Notes under the pieces: generated by a model
What the model saw: the letters and a program-made list of their open reading frames with translations, nothing else
Database searches by the model: none
Told to the model about the DNA's origin: nothing
IMG/VR virus record: IMGVR_UViG_3300022926_001346
Coordinates: 1 to 20,956 of that record
Length of the DNA: 20,956 bases
Strand: one strand, 5' to 3'
From: a virus
Made by a program: the position numbers and the translations under genes
Shown: positions 13,347 to 19,081 of the stretch, piece after piece
Position numbering within the stretch: position 1 is the first letter of the stretch
Layout of the letters: each line of letters opens with the position of its first letter

Positions 13347-14888
13347 ATGAATATTTTTGGGTTTGAAATAACTCGAGGAAAAACGCCACAAAGTGAGAAG
13401 TCCTTTGTGGCGCCTTCGGATGAAGGTGGCGTTGAAAGTATTAGAGCGGGTGGGTATTACGGTACCTATCTAGATATTGAAGGCGTTGCCAACACCGAAG
13501 CCGAGTTAATTAAGCGTTACAGAGACATTGCCATGATGGCTGATGTTGATGCCGCTATTGAAGATATTGTAAATGATTCAATAGCAAATTTAGATGATGA
13601 AGCTGCACTAACATTAGATTTGGATAACACAGGGTTATCCAGCTCAGTTAAGAAGCAGATAACAGGAGAGTTTGAGTATATTTTACGTCTTTTAGACTTT
13701 AATAATAGATCTCAGGATTACTTTAGGCGTTGGTACATAGACGGAAGAATGTATTTTCATAAAGTAATTGATACTGAAAAACCTAAAGAAGGTATAAAAG
13801 ATGTAAGATATATTGACCCACGTAAAATTACAAAGGTCAAAGAAATAAAGAAAGAAAAGAACACACATGGTGTTTCTTTCGTTAAAAGTGTAGACGAATT
13901 TTTTATATTTAATGAAAAGGGGTTAGCCACCAGGCCCGGACAGTATAAAGCATCTGATTCAGACAACGGTTTGAAAGTTACTAAAGATGCTATAGTTTAT
14001 TGTCCAAGTGGATTAATAGACATGGATAAGAATATTCCCGTGTCTTACTTACATAAAGCCATACGCCCAGCTAACCAACTTAGAATGATGGAGAACGCAG
14101 CGGTCATTTACCGCATAACACGCGCTCCGGAACGTAGAATTTTTTATCTTGATGTTGGCAACTTACCTAGTGGTAGAGCCGAACAATACTTAAAAGATGT
14201 CATGGATAGATATCGTAACAAGTTGGTGTATGATGCTAACACAGGAGAAATCAGGGACGATAAAAAGTTTATGTCCATGTTGGAGGACTTTTGGCTTCCG
14301 CGCAGAGAAGGTAGTCAGGGTACACAAATTGACACACTGCCAGCAGGACAGAACTTAGGACAAATAGAAGATATAGTATACTTTCAAAAGAAACTATATC
14401 AGGCTTTGAATGTTCCTGTATCAAGATTAGAACAGCAAGCGGGTCTAAACTTTGGCCGAGCAGCTGAGATTAACAGAGACGAATTAAAGTTTACTAAATT
14501 TGTTTCTAAATTAAGAAGAAAGTTCTCTGCTATATTTGATGATCTTCTTAAAACACAGTTAGTATTGAAAAATATTATCACTGAAGATGATTGGAAGGAT
14601 ATTAGAGAAAACATTGTATACAGGTATGCACAAGATGCTTACTATACAGAATCAAAGAATCAAGAGATTCTTAGAAGTAGAATAGAAGTTTTACAAGGTG
14701 CGTCATCTTATATTGGTTCATTGTTTAGCAAACAGTATGTACAGAAAGAAATACTCATGCTTAAAGATGAAGAAATAGAAGAAATAAATATGCAATTGCA
14801 GTTAGAAGAACCTTTTATGACGCAAGACCAAGAACATGACATGGCAATGCAGCAACAAGCTGCCGGTGAAGATACAGGAGAACAATGA
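13347..14888 (+). CDS. gp20: Portal protein gp20
   Basis: The dodecameric portal at the special head vertex starts head assembly, is the channel for gp17-driven packaging, and later binds the neck. The 513-residue protein (T4: 524) contains typical portal stretches: RYRDIAMMADVDAAIEDIVNDSI, RRWYIDGRMYFHKVID, DVRYIDPRKI, LRMMENAAVIYRITRAPERRIFYLDVGNLP, WLPRREGSQGTQIDTLPAGQNLG and LNVPVSRLEQQAGLNFGRAAEINRDELKF. Gln- and acid-rich residues form the C-terminal end. The ribosome site (GGGATAA) is weak, which would suit a protein needed in only 12 copies per head although it shares a transcript with gp19. The stop overlaps the gp67 start (ATGA). Confidence 0.97.
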   Translation: MNIFGFEITRGKTPQSEKSFVAPSDEGGVESIRAGGYYGTYLDIEGVANTEAELIKRYRDIAMMADVDAAIEDIVNDSIANLDDEAALTLDLDNTGLSSSVKKQITGEFEYILRLLDFNNRSQDYFRRWYIDGRMYFHKVIDTEKPKEGIKDVRYIDPRKITKVKEIKKEKNTHGVSFVKSVDEFFIFNEKGLATRPGQYKASDSDNGLKVTKDAIVYCPSGLIDMDKNIPVSYLHKAIRPANQLRMMENAAVIYRITRAPERRIFYLDVGNLPSGRAEQYLKDVMDRYRNKLVYDANTGEIRDDKKFMSMLEDFWLPRREGSQGTQIDTLPAGQNLGQIEDIVYFQKKLYQALNVPVSRLEQQAGLNFGRAAEINRDELKFTKFVSKLRRKFSAIFDDLLKTQLVLKNIITEDDWKDIRENIVYRYAQDAYYTESKNQEILRSRIEVLQGASSYIGSLFSKQYVQKEILMLKDEEIEEINMQLQLEEPFMTQDQEHDMAMQQQAAGEDTGEQ

Positions 14889-15154
14889 TGGACAGAGAAG
14901 CAGCAATTAGAGACATGATGCAAAGTATGGCTGGCGGTAAAGCTAGTGAAGTCCAAGATAAGTTTAATGCTATCATGCAAGCAAGAGCAGGCGAAGCTCT
15001 CAGTGATTATAGGCAAGAGCTTGCGAAAAGTGTTTTTAAAAATCCAGATTTAGAAGCTATGGGTTTGGCAGATGGTGAAGATCACGTAATTGAGGTAGAC
15101 CCTGCCGCCGAGCCTGAAACAGTTGAAACGGGAGACGATAATGAAGACGTTTAA
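14885..15154 (+). CDS. gp67: Prohead core protein gp67-like
   Basis: A small acidic prohead scaffold component of 89 residues; T4 gp67 is 80 residues and sits in the same place after gene 20. It begins with a helical part, DKFNAIMQARAGEALSDYRQELAKSVF, matching the KK/AxxFAEAMAARTxxLI-like helix of T4 gp67, and ends in an acid-rich tail (GEDHVIEVDPAAEPETVETGDDNEDV). It starts at the ATGA overlap with gp20; a second ATG three bases later could also be used. The 3' end overlaps the next gene by 14 bases. Assignment rests on position, size, helix and charge. Confidence 0.75.
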   Translation: MMDREAAIRDMMQSMAGGKASEVQDKFNAIMQARAGEALSDYRQELAKSVFKNPDLEAMGLADGEDHVIEVDPAAEPETVETGDDNEDV

Positions 15155-15440
15155 ACAATTCAGAGAAGGCGTTGAGGTAGATATCCAAGAGGCGCCAATG
15201 GATGGAGTCGAAAAAGGCTCATTAGAAGGCGACAAACATATGTGTGCAACCAAAATCTTTAAAGAAGGTTTCGGTGAAGGTACACCAATCACAGGCGAAC
15301 ACGCCACTCCAGACGATGAAGGAAATGTTGCTTGGTACAAGGTTATGTTTGAGCATGGTATCGAACAGGTTGAGATTTCAGAAGAAGGTGTACAAGTCCT
15401 TACACAAGAATCTCACATGAACCATAAGAAGAAAAAGTAA
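15141..15440 (+). CDS. Candidate internal head protein with capsid-targeting-like N-terminus
   Basis: A 99-residue protein in the place where T4 carries the prohead core gene 68, but not clearly homologous to it. I chose ATG at 15141 because GGGAG lies 6 bases upstream; an in-frame TTG at 15123 would add six residues and has no such site. The N-terminus MKTFKQFREG resembles the capsid-targeting sequence of T4 internal proteins (MKTYQEF...), and residues 15-17 followed by Ala (IQE|A) fit the gp21 protease consensus (L/I)xE. The predicted mature part of 82 residues has AWYKVMFEHGIEQVEISEEGVQVL, a small beta-rich unit, and ends in HKKKK. Targeting and cleavage are inferred. An unrelated virion role is possible. 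Confidence 0.7.
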   Translation: MKTFKQFREGVEVDIQEAPMDGVEKGSLEGDKHMCATKIFKEGFGEGTPITGEHATPDDEGNVAWYKVMFEHGIEQVEISEEGVQVLTQESHMNHKKKK

Positions 15441-15453
15441 ACGGAGAAAATAG

Positions 15454-15849
15454 ATGGCATTCGCTAGTTCTAATTTAAAGTTGACACAAGTTCAGGCCGT
15501 AGTACGAGTCAGCGGAACTGGTGGAGATAGTGGCTCTATTGATCTTGATGTTGACTTACTAAAAGCCTCTGAGACTGTGAGCAGCCCTTTAGTAAATATT
15601 TCAAAAGTACATTGGTATTGTGATAAAACCGCAACCGTAACTATTAGCCGTAACGGTGTAGATATTATGTATGTACACGGAGACGGTTTCACTGATTGGT
15701 ATGGCTTCTCTGAGAATACAGAGAACGATCAAGACATAGATATCAGTATCTCAAGCGGGGATGCTGTTGTTATCATTGAGTTGGCTAAGGTTGGTGGTTA
15801 CGGTCCATCAGAACACCAAGGTGCTGACGGTAATTTAGGAGCTAACTAA
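15454..15849 (+). CDS. Beta-rich putative head protein, unknown
   Basis: A 131-residue protein not present between genes 67 and 21 in T4. It looks like a single compact beta-sandwich: LTQVQAVVRVSG, GSIDLDVDLL, NISKVHWYCDKTATVTISRNGVDIMYVHGDG, DIDISISSGDAVVIIELAKVGGYG, with no membrane segment or signal peptide and a flexible Gly/Ala-rich end. CGGAGA precedes the ATG, and its stop shares a base with the gp21 start (TAATG), so it is coupled to the prohead protease. Position among head genes suggests a head decoration or head-associated virion protein, but the sequence gives no direct proof. Confidence 0.6.
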   Translation: MAFASSNLKLTQVQAVVRVSGTGGDSGSIDLDVDLLKASETVSSPLVNISKVHWYCDKTATVTISRNGVDIMYVHGDGFTDWYGFSENTENDQDIDISISSGDAVVIIELAKVGGYGPSEHQGADGNLGAN

Positions 15850-16508
15850 TGAAACTCATTAAAGAACTTAACGAAGATTTGAAATATATTGTAGAAGAAT
15901 CAGAGTCAGGTAAGAAGAGCCTTTATATTGAAGGTGTTTTTCTACAGTCAAATCTACAAAATAGAAACGGTCGTGTATATCCTAAAGAGATAATGGGTAA
16001 AGAAGTTGACCGTTACATGAAAGAACAAGTTGCAACTAAAAGAGCATACGGAGAATTGGGCCACCCTGACGGTCCTAGTATTAATCTAGATCGTGTTTCA
16101 CATATGGTTACTTCTCTTAAAGAAGATGGCGATAACTGGATTGGCCGTGCTAAAATTTTAGAAACCCCGATGGGTAAGATTGCAAAAGAATTAATACAAG
16201 AGGGAGCTGGCTTAGGTGTTAGTTCTCGAGGCCTCGGTTCACTAAAAGAGAACAGTGAAGGTATTAATGAAGTACAGGATGACTTCATGCTTGCTACAGC
16301 AGCAGATATTGTTGCTGATCCTTCTGCTCCTGATGCTTATGTTCAGGGCATAATGGAGAGTAGGGAGTGGGTATTTGTTAATGGAGTTTTCCAAGAAAAG
16401 GAAATTGAAGAAACCCAAAAGTATATTAAGAAAGCAAGTAGTAGAGATTTGGCCGAGGCTAAAGTAAAAGCTTTCCAAAACTTTTTAGAAATTATATCTA
16501 AAATATAA
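15849..16508 (+). CDS. gp21: Prohead maturation protease gp21
   Basis: This serine protease assembles in the prohead core and cleaves scaffold and capsid proteins after (L/I)xE sites. The 219-residue protein (T4: 212) has the fold landmarks of the herpesvirus-type S/H protease: LYIEGVFLQSNLQNRNGRVYPKEIM, the histidine motif GELGHP (H72), the serine motif GLGVSSRGLGSL (nucleophile S125 or S126; T4 has GVSSRGLGSL as well), and DIVADPSAPDAYV. All catalytic parts are present, so it should be active. It has no separate ribosome site of note and probably depends on coupling to the preceding gene. A late promoter for gp22 follows its stop. Confidence 0.96.
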   Translation: MKLIKELNEDLKYIVEESESGKKSLYIEGVFLQSNLQNRNGRVYPKEIMGKEVDRYMKEQVATKRAYGELGHPDGPSINLDRVSHMVTSLKEDGDNWIGRAKILETPMGKIAKELIQEGAGLGVSSRGLGSLKENSEGINEVQDDFMLATAADIVADPSAPDAYVQGIMESREWVFVNGVFQEKEIEETQKYIKKASSRDLAEAKVKAFQNFLEIISKI

Positions 16509-16562: not shown

Positions 16563-17747
16563 ATGGGTGTAGAGTCCAAAATTAGAGAGCTTATGGAGGG
16601 TCAGGCAAATCGACCCAAAGATAAGTCTCAGGGCGATGCAACTAATCCTACCCAAGGTAGCTCTAATCCGAATCCTGAAATGCAAGACCTTAGTGGTTCT
16701 AGCAATGCAGAAGGCGGATTAACTTCAGAAGTAGGAAAGGCTGCAGCTGCCAAAGCAAGCAAAGACAACACACTTCCTAATGGCAATGGCGCTAAAGAAG
16801 CTCCTGCAAACTATGTCAATGACAAGCCAAGCGAAACTGATGTAATGAAGAAGGCTTCTGCCGGAAACGTACACCAGGAAGAAGCAGAACTTGAAGATGA
16901 TGAAGTTCTTGCAGAAGACGAAGCCGTTGAGGAAGATGTAGCAGAGATTACCGAAGAGGAATTCGATGCTGAAGATGTTCTCGAGGAAGAAGATGTTGTT
17001 GAAGAAGAAGTTGCGGAAGAGGATGTTCTTTATGAAGAAGATCTGATGGCACTTTTTGCTGATGACGAAAATCTCACAGAAGAATTTAAAAACAAAGCAG
17101 CTGAAATTTTTGAAGCTGTTGTAACATCTCGTGTAGCCAGCGAAGTTGAAGCTATTGAAGCTGAACTTGAAGAACAGGCTAACATTGAGTTTGATTCTAA
17201 GGTTGAAGAGCTTGTTGAAAACGTAGACAAGTATATGGCATACTGTGTTGAGAACTGGATGAATGAAAATGAATTGGCAATCGAAAACGGTCTCCGTAAC
17301 GAAATTACTGAATCATTTATCAAAGGAATGCAACAGGTATTCACTGAGCACTACATTGAAGTGCCTGAAGAAAAGTATGACGTAATGACCGAAATGCAGA
17401 GTAAGCTTGATGAACTTCAGAACAGACTCGATGAGCAGGTTCAAAAGAACATTGACCTTAACGAAGAATCAGTTGCTCTAAAGAAACAGAAAATCTTTAG
17501 CACTGTTTCAGAAGATCTAGCTTCCACAGAAAAAGAAAAGTTTGCTACATTAGTAGAGGACATTACTTATTCAGGTGCTGAGTCTTATGAAAACAAACTC
17601 ACAGTTGTTAAAAATAATTATTTTGCAAAGACTACTGAACATATTTCCGAAGATAAATTAGAGGATACAGTAGATGAGCTTAGCGCAACAGATAACACTA
17701 TTATGTACAAGTATGCTAATGCAATTGCAAAAGGTTCAAAGTTTTAA
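16563..17747 (+). CDS. gp22: Major prohead scaffold protein gp22, long acidic form
   Basis: The main core scaffold around which gp23 assembles; it is later destroyed by gp21. The protein is 394 residues, against 269 in T4. The extra length is N-terminal: a low-complexity Asn/Gly/Ser/Ala-rich part (about 13-100) and a highly acidic block (107-161, nearly all E, D, V and A). The recognisable gp22 core begins about residue 160 with ALFADDENLTEEFKNKAAEIFEAVV, followed by a helical NVDKYMAYCVENWMNENELAIENGLRNEI and a coiled coil at about 273-310 (MQSKLDELQNRLDEQ...). It has its own late promoter and strong ribosome site and lies directly before gp23, as in T4. Confidence 0.93.
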   Translation: MGVESKIRELMEGQANRPKDKSQGDATNPTQGSSNPNPEMQDLSGSSNAEGGLTSEVGKAAAAKASKDNTLPNGNGAKEAPANYVNDKPSETDVMKKASAGNVHQEEAELEDDEVLAEDEAVEEDVAEITEEEFDAEDVLEEEDVVEEEVAEEDVLYEEDLMALFADDENLTEEFKNKAAEIFEAVVTSRVASEVEAIEAELEEQANIEFDSKVEELVENVDKYMAYCVENWMNENELAIENGLRNEITESFIKGMQQVFTEHYIEVPEEKYDVMTEMQSKLDELQNRLDEQVQKNIDLNEESVALKKQKIFSTVSEDLASTEKEKFATLVEDITYSGAESYENKLTVVKNNYFAKTTEHISEDKLEDTVDELSATDNTIMYKYANAIAKGSKF

Positions 17748-17800: not shown

Positions 17801-19081
17801 ATGTATCTTTCAGAACAAGTTGAGAAAAAGTGGGAACCCGTCCTTAACCATGAGAGTCTTTCACCGATTAAAGACACTTATCGTAGAGCGGTAACTGCTG
17901 TAGTTCTCGAAAACCAAGAAAAAGCATTGCGTGAAGAGCGTGCTGCTTTGTTTGAAACTGCTCACACTAACGCTACTGGCGCTAGTGTTGATAACTATGA
18001 CCCCGTATTAATTAGTTTGGTTCGCCGTGCGTTGCCAAACCTGATGGCCTATGACGTAGCTGGTGTACAGCCTATGACTGGTCCTACTGGTTTGATCTTC
18101 GCAATGAAATCACACTACTCTAGCCAGACAGGTACTGAAGCTCTGTTTAACGAAGCTGATACTGACTTCACTGGCGCCGCTTCACCTGCACACGCTGGTA
18201 GCAACCCTTTTGATGGCAGTACCTACACCACTGGTAACGGTATGTCAACATCAGCTGCTGAAGCTAAAGGTGATTCAGCTAGTAACGATATTGCAGAAAT
18301 GGCATTCAGCATTGAGAAGACCACTGTAACTGCTAAGTCACGTGCTCTTAAAGCTGAATACACAGTTGAACTTGCCCAGGACTTGAAAGCAATTCATGGT
18401 CTTGACGCAGAAAGCGAACTGAGCAACATTCTTTCTCAGGAAATTCTCGCTGAAATCAACCGTGAAGTTATCCGTACTATTTACAAAGTCGCTAAGACTG
18501 GTGCTGCTTCTACAGCAACTCCTGGTACTTTCGACCTTGACGTTGATTCAAACGGACGTTGGTCTGTAGAACGCTTCAAAGGCCTCATGTTCAACATTGA
18601 ACGTGATGCTAACGTAATTGCACAAGACACTCGTAGGGGCAAAGGTAACTTTATCATTTGTTCTTCTGACGTAGCTTCTGCTCTTGCAATGTCAGGCGTT
18701 CTTGACTATACTCCTGCTCTTTCTACTAACTTAAACGTAGATGACACTGGCAACACATTTGCTGGTACTCTGAACGGTCGTTACAAAGTGTATGTTGATC
18801 CTTATTCAGCTAACACTGGCAACGCCAATCAGTTCTATGTTGTTGGTTACAAGGGTACTTCTGCTTATGATGCAGGTATTTTCTACTGTCCGTATGTTCC
18901 TTTACAGATGGTTAGAGCTATTGATCCTGGTACATTCCAGCCAAAAATCGGCTTCAAGACTCGTTACGGCATGATTGCTAACCCATACGTTCTTAGGACT
19001 GATGGTACTACTGATGCAGATACATTTACTGCTGATCGTAACCAGTATTACAGAGGCGTTAAAGTTACTAACTTGATGTAA
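17801..19081 (+). CDS. gp23: Major capsid protein gp23
   Basis: The main shell protein with the HK97-type fold. At 426 residues it is shorter than T4 gp23 (521), as in many marine T4-like phages. Diagnostic stretches are LVRRALPNLMAYDVAGVQPMTGPTGLIFAM, the region about 165-225 (FSIEKTTVTAKSRALKAEYTVELAQDLKAIHGLDAE, EINREVIRTIYK), NFIICSSDVASAL, YKVYVDPYS and GFKTRYGMIANPYV. The helical, charged N-terminus is the expected delta-domain removed by gp21; LFE at 50-52 and LRE at 43-45 are candidate (L/I)xE sites. Codon use is more GC-rich and more biased to GGT, GCT and CGT than in its neighbours, as expected for the most abundant protein. A strong terminator follows. Confidence 0.98.
   Translation: MYLSEQVEKKWEPVLNHESLSPIKDTYRRAVTAVVLENQEKALREERAALFETAHTNATGASVDNYDPVLISLVRRALPNLMAYDVAGVQPMTGPTGLIFAMKSHYSSQTGTEALFNEADTDFTGAASPAHAGSNPFDGSTYTTGNGMSTSAAEAKGDSASNDIAEMAFSIEKTTVTAKSRALKAEYTVELAQDLKAIHGLDAESELSNILSQEILAEINREVIRTIYKVAKTGAASTATPGTFDLDVDSNGRWSVERFKGLMFNIERDANVIAQDTRRGKGNFIICSSDVASALAMSGVLDYTPALSTNLNVDDTGNTFAGTLNGRYKVYVDPYSANTGNANQFYVVGYKGTSAYDAGIFYCPYVPLQMVRAIDPGTFQPKIGFKTRYGMIANPYVLRTDGTTDADTFTADRNQYYRGVKVTNLM

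Follow-up and report, generated by a model that had tools for sequence, protein, structure and literature searches.

The internal head proteins IPI, IPII and IPIII of phage T4 are among the closest described counterparts of the protein considered here. They begin with an MKTFK-type tag that is aromatic at residues 4 and 7, positions that mutational work in T4 has tied to targeting (PMC9026906), and their propeptides of 10–19 residues end at a hydrophobic-x-Glu|Ala site (the bar marks the cut). Mature IPI has 76 residues (PMC3012670), the T4 internal proteins are diverse and basic (pI 9.0–9.7), and their genes lie outside the gp20–gp21 operon. Within that operon, between genes 67 and 21, T4 instead carries the gene for gp68. 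For cyanomyoviruses, a review states that gp67 and gp68 are lacking, along with alt, modA and modB (PMC2984593). In the open-access papers that we searched, we found no account of the protein described below or of tagged cyanophage head proteins.

The window analysed here (20,956 nucleotides; IMG/VR record IMGVR_UViG_3300022926_001346) carries head genes in the order gp20, gp67-like, target gene, 131-residue gene, gp21, gp22 and gp23. Its major capsid protein is closest, among cultured phages, to those of Methylophilales phage Melnitz (70.8%) and Pelagibacter phages, and we therefore take the virus to be a marine T4-like phage. The target gene starts with ATG, six bases downstream of a GGGAG, and its translation agrees with the 99-residue product given in a preliminary description, running from an MKTFKQFREG start through I15-Q16-E17 and A18 to an HKKKK end. 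As was also stated there, it lies two genes before the protease gene (a 131-residue frame at 15454–15849 precedes the Peptidase_S77 frame at 15849–16508). The genes concerned are:

13347..14888, + strand: gp20, portal (Portal_T4 match, 7.8e-172)
14885..15154, + strand: gp67-like prohead core gene, 89 residues, overlapping the start of the target gene (weak PHROG matches; alignment with T4 gp67 and relatives)
15130..15134, + strand: GGGAG, ribosome-binding-like site of the target gene (read in the sequence)
15141..15440, + strand: target gene, coding sequence of the 99-residue precursor including the stop codon (open reading frame translation; homologues exist)
15454..15849, + strand: 131-residue gene between target and gp21, no family match (open reading frame; family searches)
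15849..16508, + strand: gp21, prohead protease, presumed processing enzyme (Peptidase_S77, 3.6e-42)
16563..17747, + strand: gp22, prohead scaffold (T4_CASP, 1.3e-61)
17801..19081, + strand: gp23, major capsid protein (family match in the window)

At its own processing site, gp23 reads LFE|T, which aligns with LSE|A of relatives. The 131-residue protein is possibly related to proteins of similar length and placement in HTVC008M and Mosig. Searches of Pfam, NCBIfam and PADLOC with the target alone gave no match. A gp67-like gene is present both in the window (14885–15154) and in the marine relatives Melnitz, Mosig, HTVC008M and S-H38, although a review denies gp67 to every cyanophage genome. The locus shows that in marine relatives a T4-tagged head protein follows a gp67-like gene, whereas cyanomyoviruses are stated to have neither gp67 nor gp68 (PMC2984593).

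Within the target gene, alignments and models distinguish four parts:

15141..15164, + strand: tag core, residues 1–8 (MKTFKQFR), like the T4 internal-protein capsid-targeting sequence (pattern scan, homologues, pN/pS)
15183..15194, + strand: IQE|A, residues 15–18, predicted gp21 processing site, with the cut between 15191 and 15192 (homologues; pN/pS 0.09)
15192..15437, + strand: predicted mature protein, residues 18–99, 82 residues, pI 5.1 (inferred from the site)
15237..15416, + strand: Tudor/SH3-like domain, residues 33–92, with His33, Cys35, His54, His72 and His92 (alignment, fold model, structure comparison)

The resemblance of residues 1–8 to the T4 tag, noted earlier from the window alone, holds up on comparison with the MKTFKEF of IPI. 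We scanned for the pattern M-(x)-[KR]-[TS]-[FYL]-x-x-[FY] near the starts of open reading frames, with the whole T4 genome as positive control, where it picked out IPI, IPII and IPIII and nothing else among 483 open frames. The only hit among the 66 frames of the window was the target, and a 162-kb contig carrying a homologue likewise gave that homologue alone (1 of 461 frames), while a 125-kb contig gave three hits in 373 frames. Given this rarity at the starts of frames genome-wide, and a background rate for the motif after any Met of about 0.0008 (T4 and two related contigs, read in six frames), the tag goes beyond chance. Among 68 distinct homologues, F stands at residue 4 in 59 (Y in 5, L in 4) and at residue 7 in 61 (Y in 6, L in 1), and every one has R at residue 8; the two targeting positions are thus F, Y or L in 68 of 68, as fits a T4-type CTS internal head protein. 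The first homologue search had the tag among its patterns, and the scan was repeated with domain-only patterns: in that scan, which took the closest 80 matches and is biased towards near relatives, the tag stood among residues 1–70 of the open frame in 65 of 67 head-locus copies. The two exceptions are the contigs of L027 and L028, where the protein starts MKTFKQFREGVEVEIQE further into the open frame.

The processing site is equally persistent. Read in the preliminary description as an (L/I)xE gp21-type site, it is kept as [ILVM]xE in 68 of 68 distinct homologues, each with Glu directly before a conserved DGV core and I, L, V or M two residues earlier. The stretch ahead of it varies from 13 to 47 residues, yet the site still closes the tag region, as in T4-type CTS internal head proteins. 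Cys-rich linker insertions precede the site in L047, L052, L053 and L071. In 18 related genes, pN/pS was 0.08 over tag residues 2–8 and 0.09 over residues 15–18, whereas the intervening linker had 0.24 and the domain 0.21, so that tag and site are the most constrained codons of the gene. An alignment of homologues had been suggested as a check on the motif reading, and since both residues 1–8 and the IQE-type site are kept, that reading proves correct and has good support. We consider it very improbable that tag and site arose by chance, or serve another purpose, in an ordinary late cytoplasmic protein. A tag of about seven residues and a motif as weak as [ILVM]xE leave some room for this, but the tag is rare genome-wide, is kept together with the site across insertions and deletions, shares with it a codon constraint that falls on exactly these two segments, and belongs to a gene beside gp21.

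The likeness to T4 internal proteins extends to layout. The propeptide has 17 residues, the arrangement MKTFKQFREGVEVDIQE|APM of the target is almost identical to MKTFKEFTSTTTPVSTITE|ATL of IPI, and both mature proteins are small (82 and 76 residues, respectively). We considered and rejected the idea that the mature part is homologous to IPI, because outside the tag BLASTP gave nothing but chance pieces. From the sequence features, conservation, synteny and predicted fold that we computed, we infer with reasonable confidence that the target is a minor internal head protein that is targeted to the prohead core, is processed by gp21, and keeps its mature domain in the head, probably to be injected. 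During head assembly, the N-terminal tag (residues 1–8, aromatic at 4 and 7) would bind the prohead core and carry the protein in. The gp21 protease, from the second gene downstream, would then cut after Glu17 (IQE|A) and free the 82-residue mature protein, which would stay in the head and probably enter the host with the DNA, where its Tudor/SH3-like barrel may act as a binding adaptor. Counted against a packaged head protein are the tag length of only about seven residues, the acidic pI, extra weak sites and the position of most copies of the domain away from head genes. The extra sites are two weak [ILVM]xE matches in the mature part (residues 69–71 and 79–81), at which it might be cut further and lost. 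The acidic mature protein (pI 5.1) also differs from the basic T4 internal proteins and speaks against simple DNA binding.

Unlike the T4 internal-protein genes, the target gene lies within the gp20–gp21 operon, and every head-locus copy that we checked sits between the portal and protease genes. Among locus pieces long enough to tell, gp20 was upstream in all 121 and gp21 downstream in all 119 (counts that are not independent, as some contigs were fetched twice). This synteny with gp20, the gp67-like gene, gp21, gp22 and gp23 supports a head-core role. It also suits a minority possibility, namely that the target is a prohead-core assembly protein and functional stand-in for T4 gp68, which would enter via its tag, help to build the core or portal region and, once cut, be either removed or left behind as a spent remnant, playing no part in the host cell. 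The target occupies the gp68 slot between 67 and 21, and strong conservation and invariant synteny would be expected of an assembly factor, but the two proteins have no sequence similarity, gp68 has neither a tag of the target's type nor a Tudor-like domain, the tag with a single cut is the layout of retained internal proteins, and the folded domain has few sites. Homology to gp68 was itself rejected, with no BLASTP alignment obtained. The same slot in Melnitz and HTVC008M is occupied by an unrelated 82-residue protein (in Melnitz with a tag-like start, SKTLSQF...LPE), which argues that the target is not universally needed.

Five loci from other lineages, encoding three distinct proteins, bear on the same alternative. 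Their order is gp20–gp67–X–gp21–gp22–gp23, where X has 261–307 residues and carries the domain of the target behind a gp67-like N-terminus in place of the tag, an arrangement that counts for the preferred reading and also for an assembly role. Against a profile of 13 gp67-like proteins, the N-terminus of X scored 14.5–23.6 bits (best of 1000 shuffles, 11.4), and it resembles gp67 clearly in one protein and modestly in the other two. We had considered that gp67 was lost from these loci, which proved wrong, as a separate gp67-like gene lies upstream in each of the three distinct types. With X behind a gp67-like N-terminus and the target behind a tag, two core-type N-termini precede one domain at one locus. 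Our confidence in an assembly role, or in the anti-defence role discussed below, overlaps with that in the preferred reading of a retained and injected head protein, as all of them use tag-driven packaging; the difference is the job of the mature domain. Two points are new here: the cargo is a conserved Tudor-like domain that may hold a metal site, and tag and gp67-like N-termini are exchanged ahead of it.

The cargo domain (residues 33–92) recurs in long phage proteins of 200–1200 residues, and most copies in other phages are of this kind, encoded away from head genes. Across 67 clusters, His33, Cys35, Gly47, His54, Gly61, Tyr66, Phe70 and His92 (window numbering) are invariant and His72 is retained in 96%. 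An initial model of the fold had low confidence (mean pLDDT 59.7); AlphaFold2 with a deeper domain alignment reached a mean pLDDT of 75.4, with 83–93 over most of the domain and five models alike in confidence. The modelled strands span positions 15–24, 28–37, 48–52, 57–61 and 67–76 of the mature protein, and these positions predict that His33, Cys35, His54 and His92 should cluster at one end of the barrel, like a metal site. The barrel is probably held by such a His-x-Cys/His/His site, with metal as its presumed ligand. Longer versions of the target (L047:6001-6912, L051:6001-6537, L053:6001-6582, L072:1715-2251) carry a C-terminal VEEIEE[IV]SKKTLGSYIKKA module, and many of the long domain proteins (L410, L417, L405, L380, L421, L364, L376) have short amphipathic starts, MKSLYESIKNIME or FGLxDSLLDAV, which are possibly other head-targeting signals.

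By weak evidence, the predicted five-stranded barrel looks Tudor-like, of the UvrD/PcrA type. UvrD Tudor domains filled the first four rows of a Foldseek search with the second model, but at E of about 0.1–0.3; in VIA-align, rows one to four were UvrD/PcrA Tudor domains (Z 4.8–5.5), with SH3 domains just under (4.5). The Pfam family with most matches among 63 domain copies was PF21196 (PcrA_UvrD_tudor), with eight weak matches (best E 0.0049); the target itself gave no match to that model at the family cut-off. A profile comparison with the Tudor family outperformed 200 column shuffles over 17 columns only, those of an H-x-x-[FW]-G-x-G hairpin that the C-terminal Tudor domain of UvrD/PcrA shares with most members of the target family, though in the window copy Lys replaces the hairpin His. 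The His/Cys set is specific to the phage family, and the target has no helicase. Sequence searches of the PDB with profiles returned chance matches only. The domain defines a large phage family, and its invariant His/Cys set and its Tudor likeness offer two directly testable biochemical predictions.

These properties bear on the suggestion, made in the preliminary description, that the protein is a packaged effector that blocks host defences. T4 Ip1–Ip3 block GmrSD enzymes (PMC12373910), and tag and layout are as in IPI, which is the case for an injected anti-defence protein that inhibits a host nuclease like IPI–IPIII. However, the T4 proteins are diverse, specific and basic, whereas the mature part of the target is acidic, Tudor-like and highly conserved (most homologues are 57–96% identical to the target; pN/pS about 0.2), its domain is common to many phages of different hosts, and the PADLOC models gave no match. 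Strong conservation and spread over different phages argue against an arms-race anti-restriction role of the Ip1–Ip3 kind, and we regard the effector claim as unsupported and improbable.

For the internal head protein that we favour, conservation of the domain in phages of different hosts indicates a partner that is phage-encoded or a conserved host machine. The partner is more likely a component of the phage head or a universal machine of the host, with RNA polymerase as the obvious candidate for the latter. The UvrD Tudor domain binds RNA polymerase, and its hairpin His and Phe form part of an aromatic cage (PMC7585439); that of PcrA recognises a hairpin motif present in both RpoB and UvrB (PMC8318588). 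A common fold does not establish a common partner, and RNA-polymerase binding by the target domain is only a hypothesis. The PcrA partner motif, [VIL]DxxTGE[VIL][VILT], was absent in exact form from T4, the window and two related contigs, and a relaxed form matched the portal gp20 (13347–14888) at LVYDANTGEIRDD, near but not exact to the TGE hairpin motif. In one speculative and unlikely scenario, the injected, metal-stabilised Tudor-like domain would bind host RNA polymerase through its beta subunit as infection begins, in place of the T4 Alt/ModA/ModB takeover (reportedly absent in marine cyanomyoviruses), as one of a larger packaged set with this domain.

Tag-like starts also occur elsewhere in marine phages, and T4-style protein packaging seems to extend well beyond enteric T4 phages; in such genomes, packaged proteins can be sought simply by tag plus processing site. 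P-HM2 gp164 carries the domain of the target behind a tag-like start, MKSLSDFTKKSKVAE|A (site VAE|A), which counts in favour of the internal-head-protein reading, and its gene adjoins a cytidylyltransferase gene. PHROGs 22379 and 11470 (cyanophage 'possible cytitidyltransferase') likewise contain the domain (E 5e-10 and 4e-7), though their proteins are far longer and multi-part, and the ones examined beside the cytidylyltransferase gene are encoded outside the head operon. Cytidylyltransferases themselves begin with a T4 internal-protein-type tag and site in Synechococcus phage S-H38 (MKSYKEFLSE|AR; L083:2571-3698) and marine virus AG-345-E15 (MKNLFQFLAE|AG; L084:4164-5414). Because cytidylyltransferase/NMNAT-type proteins have been reported in cyanophage virions (PMC3037559, PMC9602691), these tagged enzymes may be injected. 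KSFCARM-type proteins (L176:2067-2390 and L084:7323-8687, the second matching DUF6321, PF19846) start MKSFKEFLEE|AR and MKTFEQFTE, and are possibly another class of tagged head proteins.
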